Of a stretch of 64,000 nt of DNA, positions 16,788-22,783 are shown piece after piece (positions within the stretch are counted from its first letter, which is position 1; the number at the start of each line of letters is the position of its first letter). The notes beneath the pieces were generated by a model. The model saw nothing but the letters and a program-made list of their open reading frames with translations, was not told where the DNA came from and searched no databases. Location of the stretch: positions 62,001 to 126,000 of the forward strand of contig NZ_LUKF01000019.1 of assembly GCF_001592755.1 (NCBI RefSeq), read 5' to 3'. The position numbers and the translations under genes were made by a program. This DNA comes from Bdellovibrio bacteriovorus (GTDB lineage: Bacteria > Bdellovibrionota > Bdellovibrionia > Bdellovibrionales > Bdellovibrionaceae).

Positions 16788-18425
16788 GTGAATACGGACG
16801 TTCACAATCAGCTAACCTCAGCACTCACCACGATCATCAGCGAGACCAACGGCATCTCGCTTTCTGACACTATTGATCTTTTAATAACCTCTGATTTGCA
16901 GAATCAACATCCAGAAGCTTTCAAACAAGTTGCTGAATTTAGAGAGTTGTTAAATCGATTTCAAATCAATCAAGTGACAATCAGTGCTTTGTTAAAACAT
17001 CCCGTGTCGGCGGCCTTGGCAGAGTTCTTTAAAAACTTTCCATTGAAATACAATGAAGAACACATCCACCTGACTGGTGCGATCACCGCGGAATACATTT
17101 TCCCCCGTTTGATGAAACTTTTGGAAGGCCCGAACAAAGACATCTACGAAAAAAAGATCAAAGAGGTCTACGGTGATAACGCCTTTCCGATTCGCTCTGT
17201 TCAAGATGTGGAAAAGCTGATCAGCCTTCAAGAGAACGAAGGCTTTTCTCGCTATCTAAAAATCTTGTATCTTCCAAAATTGATTTTTACTTCGCGCGAA
17301 GCCCACAAAGATGCCGCTTTCCATATGGCCGAAGAACTTTACAACAAACACAACGTCGGACGCATTCGTTTGAAGTTTTCTTTGTCTCGTGCAAGTTCTA
17401 GCTCTTCAGAACAAATCCCTGGCATTGACGACGTGACGTCTGAAGACGTGGTGCTTGGTTTGTACGACGGGTTTAAGAAATTCCAAGAAATTCGTCCCGA
17501 TTTTGATTTCATTCTGTCTCCGTCATTTAGAAAAGAAGCCAATCAGTTTGATGCCGATAAATACAAAACGCGCCAAGATCACTTTATGGATCAAGTGAAT
17601 GATTTAGTGGCGATGTTGGATAAATATCCTTTCTTGGTTCGCTATCTTAAAGATGTCGACACGGTTGGTGATGAAAGAGAACTTTACCGCAAAGAGCATT
17701 TCAATGAAATGCAAGCCGGCTTTAGAAAACTTCAGTACCGAGGTTTCAAAATCCGTTCGCATCATGGCGAGACTTGGCACACTCTAAAAAAAGGCATTCA
17801 AGCCGTTGATAACGCCATGAACATCTGGCACATCGACACCTTGGAGCATGGTATTAGTTTGGGTATTAATCCCAACAAGTACTTCCACCACATCTATCAA
17901 GACATCAAAGCGAAGAATAAAAAAGGACTGCCGATTTCGGATAAGGATCCTCTGTATCGCGAGCTTGTCGAATTGGATTGGGGATTTCACCGTTCCGTTC
18001 TAGAAAAACTTTTAAAAGGAACAGCGCTGACGGCCGAAGAGGACATTCTTTTCGTCAAAGCAAAGTTTCACACGGCTCGCGAAGTAGAACATTATCAGCA
18101 CGATGTTTTAAACCGTATGATTCAAAAAGGTGTGACTTTGGTATCGCTGCCTTCTTCAAATAATAAACTGACCGGAAAATTTGAAGATTATAAGGATCAT
18201 CCTTTTTCATGGTGGGAGAAAAAAGGCGTTCAATTGGGTGTCGGCACCGACAACTACGTGACGCTGAATACGAATTTCATCTCCGAAATGTTGATTCTTC
18301 TTTACACCGACGCCGTAAACTTAAAAATTACTAAATTACTTATGGTGACGACGGGCGAAACCCGCCGTCCTTACATCAGTCACCTTCTTTGGAAGATGAG
18401 AAAAAAACTAAGAAAGAACAGCTAG
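16788..18425 (+). CDS. adenosine deaminase-family metal-dependent hydrolase
   Basis: 545-residue amidohydrolase of the adenosine/AMP deaminase superfamily. The first metal motif is EEHIHLTGA (H92, H94), and later come SHHGETW, DTLEHGISLG, and GVGTDNY for the metal-binding Asp. It is about 200 residues longer than ordinary adenosine deaminase, with an extra N-terminal region (1-85) and insertions, and in place of the usual TDDP it has GTDN. A purine deaminase is likely but the substrate is open. The GTG start has AGGAGG six bases upstream inside a hairpin. The stop overlaps the proposed GTG of the AmpG-like gene by one base. Confidence 0.78.
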   Translation: MNTDVHNQLTSALTTIISETNGISLSDTIDLLITSDLQNQHPEAFKQVAEFRELLNRFQINQVTISALLKHPVSAALAEFFKNFPLKYNEEHIHLTGAITAEYIFPRLMKLLEGPNKDIYEKKIKEVYGDNAFPIRSVQDVEKLISLQENEGFSRYLKILYLPKLIFTSREAHKDAAFHMAEELYNKHNVGRIRLKFSLSRASSSSSEQIPGIDDVTSEDVVLGLYDGFKKFQEIRPDFDFILSPSFRKEANQFDADKYKTRQDHFMDQVNDLVAMLDKYPFLVRYLKDVDTVGDERELYRKEHFNEMQAGFRKLQYRGFKIRSHHGETWHTLKKGIQAVDNAMNIWHIDTLEHGISLGINPNKYFHHIYQDIKAKNKKGLPISDKDPLYRELVELDWGFHRSVLEKLLKGTALTAEEDILFVKAKFHTAREVEHYQHDVLNRMIQKGVTLVSLPSSNNKLTGKFEDYKDHPFSWWEKKGVQLGVGTDNYVTLNTNFISEMLILLYTDAVNLKITKLLMVTTGETRRPYISHLLWKMRKKLRKNS

Positions 18426-19753
18426 TGACCGCAACAAAGAAAAAATCGACGAAGCCTTCTTGGACTCAAACCCTTCGCGCCGTAACTCGCCCCAAAGTAG
18501 CTATCATGCTGGCTTTGGGTTTTTCTTCAGGCCTTCCTTTTATGCTTGTCGGAAACACTTTGGGTTTCTGGTTGCGCGAATCTGGAATCACCTTAGCAAC
18601 TATTGGTTTTCTGTCTTGGGTGGGTCTTGCTTACTCTTTAAAGTTTTTGTGGGCTCCTCTTATCGATAAAGCCAATGCCCCCATCATTGGAAAACTTTTG
18701 GGACGCCGTCGTGGATGGATGGTTCTGTCGCAAATCTTAATTGGCGGCGCGCTCTTTGGGATGTCCATCGTGAAGCCTGAAGGCGGATTGATGCTCTTTA
18801 CAGGGCTTGCGGCTTTAGCTGCATTTGCGTCGGCCACTCAAGATATTGTCGTGGATGCTTGGAGGATTGAAGTCTCTGACGCCAGCGAAGATATGGCATT
18901 GCTGTCATCAGCTTATCAGTTAGGCTATCGCGCTTCTTTGCTATTAACTGACGCTATTATTTTGATCGTCGCCGCTTCGGTGGGTTGGGCCGTTTCTTAT
19001 TCGATCATGGGTGCGTTGATGGCCGTGGGTCTTGTAGCAACACTGCTTGCGGTTGAACCGGGAAGAAATCTCACGCAACAACAAACTGGAACTATATGGA
19101 CGGCGCGTGGAATTTTCGACGCCGTTTGTGGCCCTTTCATTGCGTTTTTTAAACAGCATGGAAATAAGGCCCTTTTAATTCTTGCGGCAGTCAGTCTGTA
19201 TCGTCTTTCTGATTTCATGATGGGTCCTATGGCAAATCCTTTCTATGCTGATATCGGCATTACGAAAGAAACCGTGGGCGCCGTTCGTGGTTCCGTGGGC
19301 TTGATTGCTTCTGTTGTTGGCGTAGCTGCTGGCGGGCTTGCCGCTGTTCGATTCGGATTTGTATCCACATTGCTGGTCGGAGCTGTCATCGGCCCGGCTT
19401 CTAATTTAGGTTTCGCACTTTTAGCGTTAATGGGTTCTAGAAACGATGTCTTTACAGCAGCGATGGTAATAGACAATTTTGCTTCTGGTTTTGCGGGCAC
19501 AGCCTTGGTGGGATATATGTCAAGTCTCACAACATTTGGTTACACCGCGACTCAGTACGCTCTTTTGAGTTCTTTCTATGCGTTGCTGGGAAAAGTCTTA
19601 AAAGGCTTTTCGGGAGTTATGGTGCAGACTTTTTCAGAGGGAAAAACCCTTATGGAGGGCTATGCACTTTTCTTTGTCAGCACAGCTCTTGTGGGAATTC
19701 CCGCACTGCTGCTTTGCATTTTGTTGGTTCGAAGCAACAGGGTCGCTAAATAA
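18425..19753 (+). CDS. ampG: AmpG-like major facilitator permease
   Basis: Twelve-helix inner-membrane MFS protein resembling AmpG, which imports anhydro-muropeptides for cell-wall recycling. Family features are LGFSSGLPFMLVGNTLGFWLRE-like first helices (split here at SGLPFMLVG), FLWAPLIDK, and the ATQDIVVDAWRIE motif that follows helix 4. The start is ambiguous. GTG at 18425 overlaps the previous stop, while TTG at 18389 would add 12 mostly charged residues inside the upstream gene; neither has a strong ribosome-binding site. The 442 residues fit the family. A predator that digests prey wall would have clear use for it, but that is inference. A long hairpin follows the stop. Confidence 0.87.
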   Translation: MTATKKKSTKPSWTQTLRAVTRPKVAIMLALGFSSGLPFMLVGNTLGFWLRESGITLATIGFLSWVGLAYSLKFLWAPLIDKANAPIIGKLLGRRRGWMVLSQILIGGALFGMSIVKPEGGLMLFTGLAALAAFASATQDIVVDAWRIEVSDASEDMALLSSAYQLGYRASLLLTDAIILIVAASVGWAVSYSIMGALMAVGLVATLLAVEPGRNLTQQQTGTIWTARGIFDAVCGPFIAFFKQHGNKALLILAAVSLYRLSDFMMGPMANPFYADIGITKETVGAVRGSVGLIASVVGVAAGGLAAVRFGFVSTLLVGAVIGPASNLGFALLALMGSRNDVFTAAMVIDNFASGFAGTALVGYMSSLTTFGYTATQYALLSSFYALLGKVLKGFSGVMVQTFSEGKTLMEGYALFFVSTALVGIPALLLCILLVRSNRVAK

Positions 19754-19782: not shown

Positions 19783-19826
19783 TCGCCGCAAACTCAGGAA
19801 GATAATGATTCCTTCCGTTGCGGCGA
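19783..19826. repeat. two-step inverted repeat between ampG and ndh
   Basis: Outer arms TCGCCGCAA (19783-19791) and TTGCGGCGA (19818-19826) are perfect 9-bp complements. Inside them GGAAG (19797-19801) pairs with CTTCC (19812-19816). No T-run follows on either strand, so a simple intrinsic terminator is not indicated; it may be a processing or attenuation structure. Confidence 0.6.
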
Positions 19827-19838
19827 GTGTTAGAATGG

Positions 19839-19854
19839 CCTCGTGCAAACGAGG
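19839..19854 (+). promoter_or_regulatory. GNRA-capped hairpin covering the ndh ribosome-binding site
   Basis: CCTCGT (19839-19844), loop GCAA and ACGAGG (19849-19854) form a 6-bp stem with a stable GNRA tetraloop. The right arm supplies the only Shine-Dalgarno-like sequence (GAGG) for the ATG at 19860. Confidence 0.5.
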
Positions 19855-19859
19855 TTTCT

Positions 19860-21128
19860 ATGTCAGCCAAAAAAGTCGTCATTGTCGGTGGTGGATTTGC
19901 GGGCTTAAAAGCGGCTCGCGCGTTAGGCAACAAAGATGCAGTGTCTGTGACACTTATTGATCGTCGCAACTATCATCTTTTTCAACCTCTTCTTTATCAG
20001 GTCGCCACGGCCGGATTATCTCCTGCGGAAATTTCGGGCCCCATCCGTGGACTTCTGTCAAAGTATCAAAACGTTTCTGTTTTCTTAGACAATGTCAAAA
20101 GCGTGGACCTGCAAAATCGAAAGCTCGAAGTGAGTGATCGCACCGTCGACTATGACTATCTGATTTTAGCTTGCGGAGCCAAGCACAGTTACTTCGCTCA
20201 TCCCGAGTGGGAAGAAAATGCTCCGGGATTGAAAACACTAGAGCAAGCGACGGAAATTCGTCGTCGTCTTTTGATGGCCTTTGAACTTGCAGAAAAAGAA
20301 GAAGATCCCGAAAAACAAAAGCAACATCTGACTTTTGTGATTGTAGGTGGCGGCCCGACAGGTGTTGAGCTTGCCGGCGCTATTGCAGAAATCAGTCGTC
20401 ATACATTGACCGAAGATTTCAGGCACATTGATCCTTCACGTACACGCGTGCTATTGATCGAAGCTGGCAAAAGAATTCTTGCGGCCTTCGATGAATCACT
20501 TTCTCGTCAGGCCGCCCGAGACTTAGAAGATCTGGGCGTGCAAATCTGGACGAACACACGTGTAACAGATGTAAAGCCTACATCTGTTGTTTTGGGAGAT
20601 GAAATCGTAAAAGCTTCGACTATTCTTTGGGCTGCAGGCGTTCAACCTTCAAGCTTAAATAAGTCTTTAGGTGTTCCATTAGATCGCGGCGGTCGCGTGA
20701 TTATCGAAAAAGATTTAAGTCTGAAAGATCATCGCGAAGTTTTCGTACTGGGTGATCAGGCTTGCTATATGGGAGACGATGGAAAGGCTTTACCCGGTTT
20801 AGCGTCTGTAGCTATGCAACAGGGCGAACATGCCGCTCGTGAGATTTTACAAGAGATCAACGGAAAGCCACGGAGCGAATTTAAATATCGAGATAAAGGC
20901 CAAATGGCCACAATCGGTCGAAGAAAAGCCATTGCACAAATCAATCGTCTGAAGTTCAGCGGATTTTTTGCCTGGCTTCTTTGGTTATTCATTCACGTCT
21001 ACTATTTAATTGGATTTAAGAATAAAGTTTTCGTCATCTGGCAGTGGGCTTATGCGTACTTTACATTCAAGCGCGGTGCTCGATTGATTGTTGATAAAGA
21101 GTGGCGATCACAACCCAAGAGCCCGTGA
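19860..21128 (+). CDS. ndh: type II NADH dehydrogenase (NDH-2)
   Basis: Single-subunit, non-proton-pumping NADH:quinone oxidoreductase at the inner membrane. The FAD-binding motif VIVGGGFAGLKAAR is at about 7-20. The quinone-site segment (YQVATAGLSPAEI) follows at about 53-65 and the NADH-binding FVIVGGGPTGVELAG at about 159-173. A second FAD contact is VFVLGDQAC. The C-terminal membrane-anchoring part has hydrophobic and basic stretches (FFAWLLWLFIHVYYLIGF). The ATG at 19860 was chosen because it has GAGG upstream and the protein then starts directly at the Rossmann fold. At 422 residues it has the normal length. It sits alone between ampG and the type III PKS genes. Confidence 0.93.
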   Translation: MSAKKVVIVGGGFAGLKAARALGNKDAVSVTLIDRRNYHLFQPLLYQVATAGLSPAEISGPIRGLLSKYQNVSVFLDNVKSVDLQNRKLEVSDRTVDYDYLILACGAKHSYFAHPEWEENAPGLKTLEQATEIRRRLLMAFELAEKEEDPEKQKQHLTFVIVGGGPTGVELAGAIAEISRHTLTEDFRHIDPSRTRVLLIEAGKRILAAFDESLSRQAARDLEDLGVQIWTNTRVTDVKPTSVVLGDEIVKASTILWAAGVQPSSLNKSLGVPLDRGGRVIIEKDLSLKDHREVFVLGDQACYMGDDGKALPGLASVAMQQGEHAAREILQEINGKPRSEFKYRDKGQMATIGRRKAIAQINRLKFSGFFAWLLWLFIHVYYLIGFKNKVFVIWQWAYAYFTFKRGARLIVDKEWRSQPKSP

Positions 21129-21145
21129 TTCATAACACTGGATCT

Positions 21146-21179
21146 ACCGAAGCTTCAGGTGTTCCTGAAGCATTTCGGT
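21146..21179 (+). repeat. long hairpin directly in front of the type III PKS start
   Basis: ACCGAA plus GCTTCAGG (21146-21159), loop TGTT, then CCTGAAGC, two unpaired bases and TTCGGT (21164-21179) give 14 pairs with one 2-base bulge. The next base begins the ATG at 21180. No T-run follows. Confidence 0.75.
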
Positions 21180-22289
21180 ATGTACTTACAAAACTTTCAC
21201 TCCATACAACCACCCTATCCGAAAAACCAAGGCGACGGTCTTAAGTGGCTGGCTGCCATTTACAAAGCGGCACAAAAAGATCAAGCCTACTCAGAAGAAG
21301 AATACGCAAAACTTCTTTCACGAGTGGCTTGCTCTGAAACGCAGATTGCGACGCGAAGATTCTTTCTTCCGGATTCGCAGCACACTGAATGGGATAAGAA
21401 CCAGATTTATCCGGTGACGCAATCTCCGCGCGGAGTAAGCATGCATCACCGTCACGAGTTCTATCACAAAACAGTGGTCGATCTTTTTAATAAGCTTTAC
21501 GATGCTCGTGGATTTCCCGATGACATTATTCACGTCAGCTGCACCGGATATGTTTCACCCAGTGCCGCACAAATGGTGGCGGTGCGTGCACCGAAACCCG
21601 TGACGGTGACTCATTCCTATCATATGGGCTGTTATGGCGCTTTCCCCGCCTTGCGCATGGCTTCGGGTTTCTTGGCGAATCAAGAAGTGTTAGGAAAAAA
21701 GAAAGCCGTAGATCTGGTTCACACAGAACTTTGCAGCCTGCATTTAAATCCTCAAGATCCGACGCTAGAACAAATGGTGATTCAAAGTCTTTTTGCAGAT
21801 GGCGTGATCGCTTACTCCATGACATCGGAAAAGCCACAAAAGGGATTTAAGGTTCACTCTTTATACGAAGAACTTGTTCCTGAAACTTCAGGTGCCATGG
21901 AGTGGATGGTTTCAGACTGGGGAATGAAAATGACCTTGTCGAAAGACGTCCCAATGATGGTGGGACAAAAGATCTGTGACTTCACACATCGCTGGCTGAA
22001 TGCCCGTGGACTAGATCCGGCAGAAATTTCCAAGAAGGCTCTTTTTGCTGTTCACCCAGGTGGGCCGAAAATTATTGATCAAGTCGTAAAGCAGATGGAT
22101 CTTAAAGATCAGCAAGTGCAAGCCAGTCGGGCCCTTCTAAAAGAGCGTGGCAATATGTCGTCGGCGACTTTGCCCCACCTTTGGGAAAAGATTCTGAATG
22201 ACGACAGCATTCCATCCGGCACTCCGATAATCAGTTATGCCTTCGGCCCAGGACTAACAATCTGTGCAGGACTTATGGAGAAAGTATGA
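21180..22289 (+). CDS. type III polyketide synthase (chalcone/stilbene synthase family)
   Basis: Homodimeric ketosynthase that extends an acyl-CoA starter with malonyl-CoA and cyclises the product. The Cys-His-Asn triad is present, counted from the ATG at 21180: Cys151 in HMGCYGAFPALR, His292 in AVHPGGPKI and Asn325 in GNMSSAT. The C-terminal FGPGLTICAGL loop is also conserved. The 369-residue length fits. A GTG at 21159 in frame is possible but would lie within a strong hairpin. No good ribosome-binding site is visible at either start. The stop overlaps the next ATG by four bases. Bacterial relatives make alkylresorcinols, alkylpyrones or germicidin-like products; the starter cannot be read from sequence. 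Confidence 0.88.
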   Translation: MYLQNFHSIQPPYPKNQGDGLKWLAAIYKAAQKDQAYSEEEYAKLLSRVACSETQIATRRFFLPDSQHTEWDKNQIYPVTQSPRGVSMHHRHEFYHKTVVDLFNKLYDARGFPDDIIHVSCTGYVSPSAAQMVAVRAPKPVTVTHSYHMGCYGAFPALRMASGFLANQEVLGKKKAVDLVHTELCSLHLNPQDPTLEQMVIQSLFADGVIAYSMTSEKPQKGFKVHSLYEELVPETSGAMEWMVSDWGMKMTLSKDVPMMVGQKICDFTHRWLNARGLDPAEISKKALFAVHPGGPKIIDQVVKQMDLKDQQVQASRALLKERGNMSSATLPHLWEKILNDDSIPSGTPIISYAFGPGLTICAGLMEKV

Positions 22290-22783
22290 GCGCGTTTTTG
22301 ATCGTTTCGGCCGTGCAGGGAGCCGCTATTTTATTTGATGAATTTTTCTTTCACCATAAACGTGGACTTCCAAAATGGGAAGTTATCGGTCACCCCATTG
22401 ACACGATGACGGTCATTGCATGCCTACTTTTCCTGGCCTTTACGGAAAGAACGCCAACGACGGAAATTATTTATTACGTGATGGCGACGATTTCATGCAT
22501 CTGTGTCACCAAAGACGAATGGGTGCATAGAAAGTTCTGCTCAGCAGAAGAGATGTGGCTGCACGCCGTTTTATTCATGATGCATCCGTTGTCCTTATTC
22601 GTAGCGATGTACGAATGGGAAGACAGTCGAGCCGCTTTTGTTGCGGTGGCCGGAGGCGTCTTTGTGTTCTTGGTATATCAGGTGATCTATTGGGGATTTC
22701 TTGCCGAACGCCTTCGCAAAGCCCGTATTCAAAATTCTTTTCGCAAAGTGCAGCAAGAAAATGAAGGGCCTGCACCTTCTTAA
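22286..22783 (+). CDS. small histidine-rich integral membrane protein, PKS partner
   Basis: 165-residue protein with about four membrane segments (about 2-18, 40-55, 62-78, 85-105, 115-140 contain the hydrophobic stretches). Conserved-looking His/Asp/Glu clusters lie at the membrane borders: DEFFFHHKRG (about 18-27), GHPIDT (about 35-40), KDEWVHRKFC (about 76-85), EEMWLHAVLF and MHPLS (about 88-104). Such paired His/Glu clusters resemble metal-binding membrane oxidases or hydroxylases, but I do not recognise the family. Its ATG overlaps the PKS stop (ATGA), so it is translated with the PKS and very likely acts on its product. Confidence 0.7.
   Translation: MSAFLIVSAVQGAAILFDEFFFHHKRGLPKWEVIGHPIDTMTVIACLLFLAFTERTPTTEIIYYVMATISCICVTKDEWVHRKFCSAEEMWLHAVLFMMHPLSLFVAMYEWEDSRAAFVAVAGGVFVFLVYQVIYWGFLAERLRKARIQNSFRKVQQENEGPAPS

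Follow-up and report, generated by a model that had tools for sequence, protein, structure and literature searches.

A type III polyketide synthase and a five-helix membrane protein of an unnamed family as putative core of a phenolic-lipid operon in Bdellovibrionota

The locus and its polyketide synthase

The window, i.e., the whole stretch of 64,000 nucleotides analyzed, is part of contig C19 of a 3.66-Mb Bdellovibrio bacteriovorus genome and carries a gene for a type III polyketide synthase (PKS) which overlaps with the gene for a small membrane protein (MEM). The features of the locus are given in window coordinates, and the counts for MEM residues refer to the 52 family members of PKS type.

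19818-21128, + strand: NDH-2, type II NADH dehydrogenase (PF07992 and PF22366), upstream neighbor of PKS
21180-22289, + strand: PKS, type III polyketide synthase of the ArsB/ArsC type (369 aa with the conserved ATG as start)
21630-21632, + strand: catalytic Cys codon (motif HMGCYG, invariant column), position 149 of the aligned reference starting at 21186
21903-21905, + strand: Trp codon at the ArsB-281/ArsC-284 position, aligned to Trp of 3vs9 and Gly of 3vs8
22053-22055, + strand: catalytic His codon (motif HPGGPK, invariant column)
22152-22154, + strand: catalytic Asn codon (motif GNMSSAT, invariant column)
22286-22289, + strand: ATGA shared by the stop of PKS and the start of MEM, seen in the sequence
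22286-22783, + strand: MEM, membrane protein of 165 aa with five helices (AlphaFold2 model), family unnamed and unmatched in Pfam and NCBIfam
22340-22354, + strand: MEM E19-x3-H23, end of helix 1 (E19 in 52/52, H23 in 51/52)
22391-22402, + strand: MEM H36-P-x-D39, start of helix 2 (H36 in 51/52, D39 in 52/52)
22511-22528, + strand: MEM K76-D-E78-x2-H81, after helix 3 (E78 and H81 each in 51/52)
22550-22585, + strand: MEM E89-x3-H93-x6-H100, one face of helix 4 (E89 and H93 each in 52/52, H100 in 50/52)

The PKS open reading frame spans 21159-22289 (+) with an in-frame GTG at 21159 as alternative start, while the ATG at 21180, located 51 nt after the end of the NDH-2 gene, is the conserved start, most same-genus relatives having the same beginning (MYL..). 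Just upstream of NDH-2 and on the same strand, a gene for an MFS/AmpG-like permease (PF07690, PF13000) is found at 18389-19753. A sequence-only reading of the locus had the PKS stop overlapping the ATG of a 165-residue membrane protein, and this is confirmed: at the junction (...GGAGAAAGTATGAGC...) the 4-nt ATGA with the MEM start includes the stop TGA of PKS, and a GGAG resembling a ribosome-binding site is present just 5' of this overlap. As the MEM start overlaps PKS by 4 nt or abuts it directly in most relatives as well, the two genes are likely translationally coupled via this overlap. Promoter and terminator scans returned numbers no different from those for shuffled sequence.

Against the C-terminal model PF02797 (Chal_sti_synt_C) the PKS scores 76.5 bits (cut-off 27), and against the N-terminal model PF00195 17.3 bits, under the cut-off of 27. 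The closest solved structure is the Azotobacter type III PKS 3vs9/3vs8 (E 4.5e-63), and by these matches the enzyme belongs to the ArsB/ArsC class of type III PKSs. The Cys-His-Asn triad, already read as intact from the sequence, is invariant in 30 of 30 PKS relatives. Likewise, all 30 have Trp at the position deciding between resorcinol and pyrone formation, where ArsB carries Trp and gives resorcinols and ArsC carries Gly and gives pyrones (PMC6274091, PMC9927152). Having the ArsB-type Trp in common with Azotobacter ArsB, the PKS is predicted to produce an alkylresorcinol, under a cyclization rule that derives from few enzymes. In Azotobacter, a fatty acid synthase that feeds the PKS is encoded in the ars operon as well (PMC6274091), whereas no fatty acid synthase was seen in the Bdellovibrionota loci read.

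Distribution of the pair and its methyltransferase

Of 291 genomes examined in the phylum, 72 contain both PKS and MEM, 2 have PKS without MEM, 3 have MEM without PKS and 214 lack both (Fisher p about 6e-62, with no correction for common descent), so that PKS and membrane protein indeed form a real unit, as supposed earlier. MEM is encoded within 1.5 kb of 70 of the 75 PKS genes, and in two of the three genomes with MEM alone it is located at a contig edge. In seven genomes, a far weaker synthase of another type was the best match, and none of them has MEM (0/7). Outside the genus, the gene order is PKS, MEM and then an O-methyltransferase of the UbiG family (MT). The tie between PKS and MEM is strong but not absolute. 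Two genomes retain every component in spite of separation, G029 with PKS-MT and MEM on different contigs and G263 with PKS by itself and MEM-MT elsewhere. MEM is not always needed, because G273 has PKS, MT and a UbiA-type gene without MEM, and G049 has PKS alone. A second PKS-MEM locus in one same-genus genome (L087, G003:C12) is decaying, with an in-frame stop in PKS and MEM reduced to about 53 residues. In three loci (L028, L054, L058), a gene of the size of a MarR-like regulator (149-199 aa, judged by eye) adjoins the operon.

A search for the pair in other phyla, as proposed with the sequence-only reading, did not extend its range: no MEM was detected among 291 genomes of one other phylum or among 40 of a second, in searches that had no positive control, and plasmids and viral contigs held no MEM relative. 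The single weak match from beyond the phylum, a 60-aa frame in G383 (E 9e-4), appears to be noise. With MEM as single-sequence query, one locus was found in the genome contigs, so that other phyla may still harbor distant relatives. Hence, in the collections searched, MEM is so far known from Bdellovibrionota alone.

The locus had been described as a two-gene cassette, which does not hold for the relatives, where PKS, MEM and MT stand together and where, in at least four genomes (L053, L054, L055, L056), MEM is fused to MT, the MEM C-terminus running straight into the methyltransferase. The source genome possesses two unlinked MT genes, both UbiG homologues on other contigs and 49-50% identical to an operonic MT.

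G000 (source genome), contig C20, 62619-63353: MT gene L074
G000 (source genome), contig C1, 258139-258861: MT gene L075

All MTs tested (operonic, fused, L074 and L075) reach 140-151 bits against TIGR01983 (cut-off 102.95), with 150.7 bits for L074 and 140.3 bits for L075, scores that assign MT to the UbiG family. In a maximum-likelihood tree, L074 is nested in a supported clade of operonic and fused MTs (99/97) and L075 is placed among operonic and fused MTs without resolution. Unlike E. coli UbiG, which is far away in this tree, the MTs form a separate, distant group belonging to PKS operons. At least one MT is encoded in each of the 20 same-genus genomes with the PKS-MEM pair. Of the four same-genus genomes without the pair, one (G012) has no MT. 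Because the other three do have one, MT may play another role as well. Taken together, a cassette of PKS, MEM and MT is well supported.

UbiA represents a family of aromatic prenyltransferases. A gene of this type follows MT in L055, L081 and L095 (PF01040 match in L055, similarity reading in L081 and L095), which fits an aromatic product and suggests a prenylated product variant.

The MEM family

In agreement with the earlier view of a membrane partner without recognized family, MEM matches nothing in Pfam or NCBIfam at E 1, including any known non-enzymatic family, and scanning 28 relatives with Pfam gave merely scattered weak matches to unrelated membrane models. The MEM profile retrieved two chance matches from the PDB sequences (E about 4). 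By these searches, MEM represents a protein family without name, outside every Pfam and NCBIfam family. Structure prediction, which had been suggested along with the sequence-only reading, succeeded insofar as a confident AlphaFold2 model was obtained (24 relatives, mean pLDDT 94.1), but it gave no structural match hinting at oxygenase chemistry, Foldseek finding none at E 0.001 or better. Bestrophin homologues were dismissed as relatives, as the best Z of 10 in VIA-align is within the range expected for helical bundles.

The model comprises helices at residues 3-26, 30-52, 57-75, 78-84, 87-109 and 115-159, five of them long and the one at 78-84 short. The conserved polar residues D18, E19, H23, E32, H36, D39, K76, D77, E78, H81, E89, H93 and H100 are found where helix 1 ends and helix 2 starts, where helix 3 ends, in the short helix and in the first half of helix 4, and in the model all of them lie on one side of the membrane. 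This side is predicted to be cytosolic because of the bias in Lys/Arg (3, 3 and 6 in two loops and the C-terminal tail on the cluster side versus 1, 1 and 0 on the opposite side) and because of the C-terminal fusion to a cytosolic methyltransferase. Within each helix, the spacings (3, 4 and 11) align the residues along a single face, as in metal sites. The conserved ligand-type residues may form a putative metal site in MEM.

The His/Asp/Glu clusters singled out in the sequence-only reading (DEFFFHHKRG, GHPIDT, KDEWVHR, EEMWLHA and MHPLS) are indeed located at the ends of helices and show the strongest conservation within the family, for which reason these motifs are not due to chance. Among the homologues, His, Glu, Asp or Lys is kept at 11 positions in at least 50 of the 52 PKS-type members, which were separated from solo paralogues by score and inspection. 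The latter, seven proteins without an adjacent PKS (L026, L060, L065, L066, L067, L068, L069), make up a second unnamed family within the phylum in which the His set is partly replaced: H36 is lost and D77 changed to N in 7/7, H81 changed to Y in 6/7 and H23 to N or K in 5/7, whereas D18, R26, E32, D39, K76, E78, E89, H93, H100 and E or D at position 19 are retained. Because they are lost in these PKS-free paralogues, three of the five MEM His residues appear to be tied to the PKS pathway, beyond what the mere fold would ask for. In G105, where the searches revealed no PKS, MEM has D23, G26, Q76, R77, Y100 and R132, and thus is without H23, D77 and H100. Where PKS is present but unlinked (L025, L084), the residue set is intact.

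Classical AlkB-type enzymes, desaturases and fatty acid hydroxylases have three His boxes including HxxHH, and the AOX/COQ7 proteins two ExxH motifs in a four-helix bundle. MEM shares with both groups the placement of carboxylates and His at the end of a membrane helix bundle, a resemblance in working only. Membership in the former group was rejected, as the alignment contains no HxxHH and 28 members gave no match to such a family even at E 10. A carboxylate di-iron protein of the AOX/COQ7 kind was rejected as well, since MEM has one ExxH (E78-H81) and two ExxxH (E19-H23, E89-H93) and no Pfam match. Nor did 28 members give a PF04140 or PF04191 match as expected for a methyltransferase of the ICMT/PEMT kind (BpsB/SrsB type), although the fold of the latter, not among the structural matches listed, may still be shared. 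Of the earlier idea of metal-binding sites as in membrane hydroxylases or desaturases, the membrane-oxygenase part is supported, while the motifs are not of the classical histidine-box type.

Proposed pathway and alternative roles of MEM

Type III PKS, methyltransferase and hydroxylase/oxidoreductase are combined in the Srs system of Streptomyces griseus and the Pkq system of Mycobacterium smegmatis/Streptomyces, which form alkylquinones and polyketide quinones (PMC9927152). Similarly, the operons hidABC of picocyanobacteria and mtr-fdo-PKS of a planctomycete encode PKS, methyltransferase and oxidoreductase for O-methylated alkylresorcinols, and a published tree groups cyanobacterial HidC with ArsB/ArsC (PMC10896814, PMC8086630). 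The Bdellovibrionota operons resemble Srs and Pkq in that, in the relatives, a methyltransferase and one more tailoring protein accompany a PKS carrying the Trp of resorcinol type, and in their membrane-lipid logic. They differ in the UbiG type of MT, the order PKS-MEM-MT, the occasional union of MEM and MT in one polypeptide and the presence of MEM in place of a flavin oxidoreductase, a type of enzyme not seen in the operons read. Also in hidABC and mtr-fdo-PKS the third protein is annotated as oxidoreductase, whereas its Bdellovibrionota counterpart, a membrane protein, belongs to a family without name. The methyltransferase known from Srs, Pkq and Hid cassettes is found with PKS in the relatives and solely unlinked in the source genome. 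The supposition that the partner departs from the usual methyltransferases and oxidoreductases is thus right for the oxidoreductase slot, but the usual methyltransferase is present. Overall, this is a known general kind of pathway, PKS plus methyltransferase plus oxidoreductase, in which a new protein family occupies the place of the oxidizing enzyme. In the literature searched, with subscription papers mostly outside its scope, no description of the PKS unit in Bdellovibrio was found.

An alkylresorcinol does not possess vicinal hydroxyl groups. At the membrane, UbiG acts as methyltransferase on the catechol 2-polyprenyl-6-hydroxyphenol and on a hydroxy-methoxy-benzoquinol (PMC4796655). Because the substrate of a UbiG-type enzyme is a catechol, a ring hydroxylation is to be expected between the PKS and MT steps. 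In known PKS cassettes, the third protein carries out the oxidation (PMC9927152, PMC10896814, PMC8086630). A UbiH-type flavin hydroxylase exceeding the family cut-off was found in none of 24 same-genus genomes, the best matches in the source genome (about 20 bits) being consistent with nucleotide-binding motifs, and no flavin oxidoreductase or hydroxylase was recognized in the neighboring open reading frames read, most of them by eye. By elimination and analogy, the oxygenase role may be assigned to MEM, which could also catalyze another metal-dependent step.

Very probably, the conserved gene set yields a modified phenolic, resorcinol-type membrane lipid. The cytosolic PKS would extend a presumably long-chain acyl starter with malonyl-CoA, and the tetraketide would close to an alkylresorcinol. 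MEM, filling the slot of the flavin oxidoreductase in Srs, Pkq and Hid cassettes, might then bind one or two metal ions and hydroxylate the membrane-bound ring to a catechol or hydroquinone. Finally, MT could O-methylate the new vicinal hydroxyl, resulting in a methoxylated alkylphenol that might be oxidized to a quinone. We slightly favor this scheme as a whole, with PKS and MEM as core of a Bdellovibrionota phenolic-lipid operon leading from alkylresorcinol via metal-dependent hydroxylation by MEM to methylation by MT.

Alternatively, MEM could be a tailoring enzyme of the same pathway other than an oxygenase, employing a metal or acid/base catalysis, such as a decarboxylase/aromatase for alkylresorcylic acid, an isomerase or a product-releasing hydrolase. 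The linkage and conservation evidence is equally compatible with such a function and the ligand pattern is unlike that of any classical oxygenase, but a UbiG-type MT requires the vicinal hydroxyl which is absent from alkylresorcinol. Resorcylic acids are made by known type III PKS relatives (PMC6274091), yet each of the three closest cassettes has an oxidoreductase as third protein (PMC9927152, PMC10896814, PMC8086630), and a non-oxidative role appears unlikely. Quite improbable is a PKS forming alkylpyrones, with MEM and MT modifying a pyrone lipid. Methyltransferases of the BpsB type modify pyrone lipids in Bacillus. Although the closest solved relative ArsC makes pyrones (PMC6274091) and few enzymes underlie the Trp rule, this residue occupies the deciding position throughout the relatives and a phenolic ring is indicated by the UbiG-type MT and the UbiA-type neighbors. 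Least probable of all is a membrane scaffold uniting PKS product and MT without own chemistry, for which the small size of MEM, the overlap of its gene with PKS and the direct fusion to MT would speak, but for which the strictly conserved 5 His and 5-6 Glu/Asp residues would be superfluous, all the more as this set is kept with unlinked PKS and decays where PKS is absent.

Returning to MEM as hydroxylase, it might, as a tentative and somewhat doubtful extension, represent the first member of a new class of metal oxygenases in membranes, very small with five helices in about 150 residues and without kinship to flavin hydroxylases, AOX/COQ7 or AlkB/desaturases. MEM would draw its ligands from ExxxH, HPxD, DExxH and ExxxHx6H motifs, and in the predatory Bdellovibrionota it would help to make a quinone or methoxyphenol lipid of polyketide origin. 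A known phenolic-lipid pathway would then have its oxidizing enzyme replaced by a protein of no recognized family, and the unnamed membrane protein family gains a precise, testable biochemical context.

The NDH-2 gene directly upstream had made a quinone-like lipid imaginable. This adjacency is real and kept in 11 of the 20 same-genus genomes with the pair, but it was found in 0 other loci searched and is limited to part of one genus, so that NDH-2 was rejected as a general part of the PKS unit and its adjacency lends weak support to a respiratory role. What makes a quinone-like product conceivable is the precedent of Pkq and Srs, not NDH-2; polyketide quinones (Pkq) are electron carriers (PMC9927152). 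If MEM does found a new oxygenase class, the Bdellovibrionota UbiG homologues would serve a polyketide lipid rather than ubiquinone. Because the UbiG-type genes fall in the group of PKS-operon MTs, UbiG homology is no evidence for ubiquinone synthesis in the phylum. A passage in PMC13386864, citing Spain et al. 2016, mentions ubiquinone-8 from Bdellovibrio and a genome said to hold three ubiquinone-pathway homologues only, and the placement of L074 and L075 bears on the report as given there.
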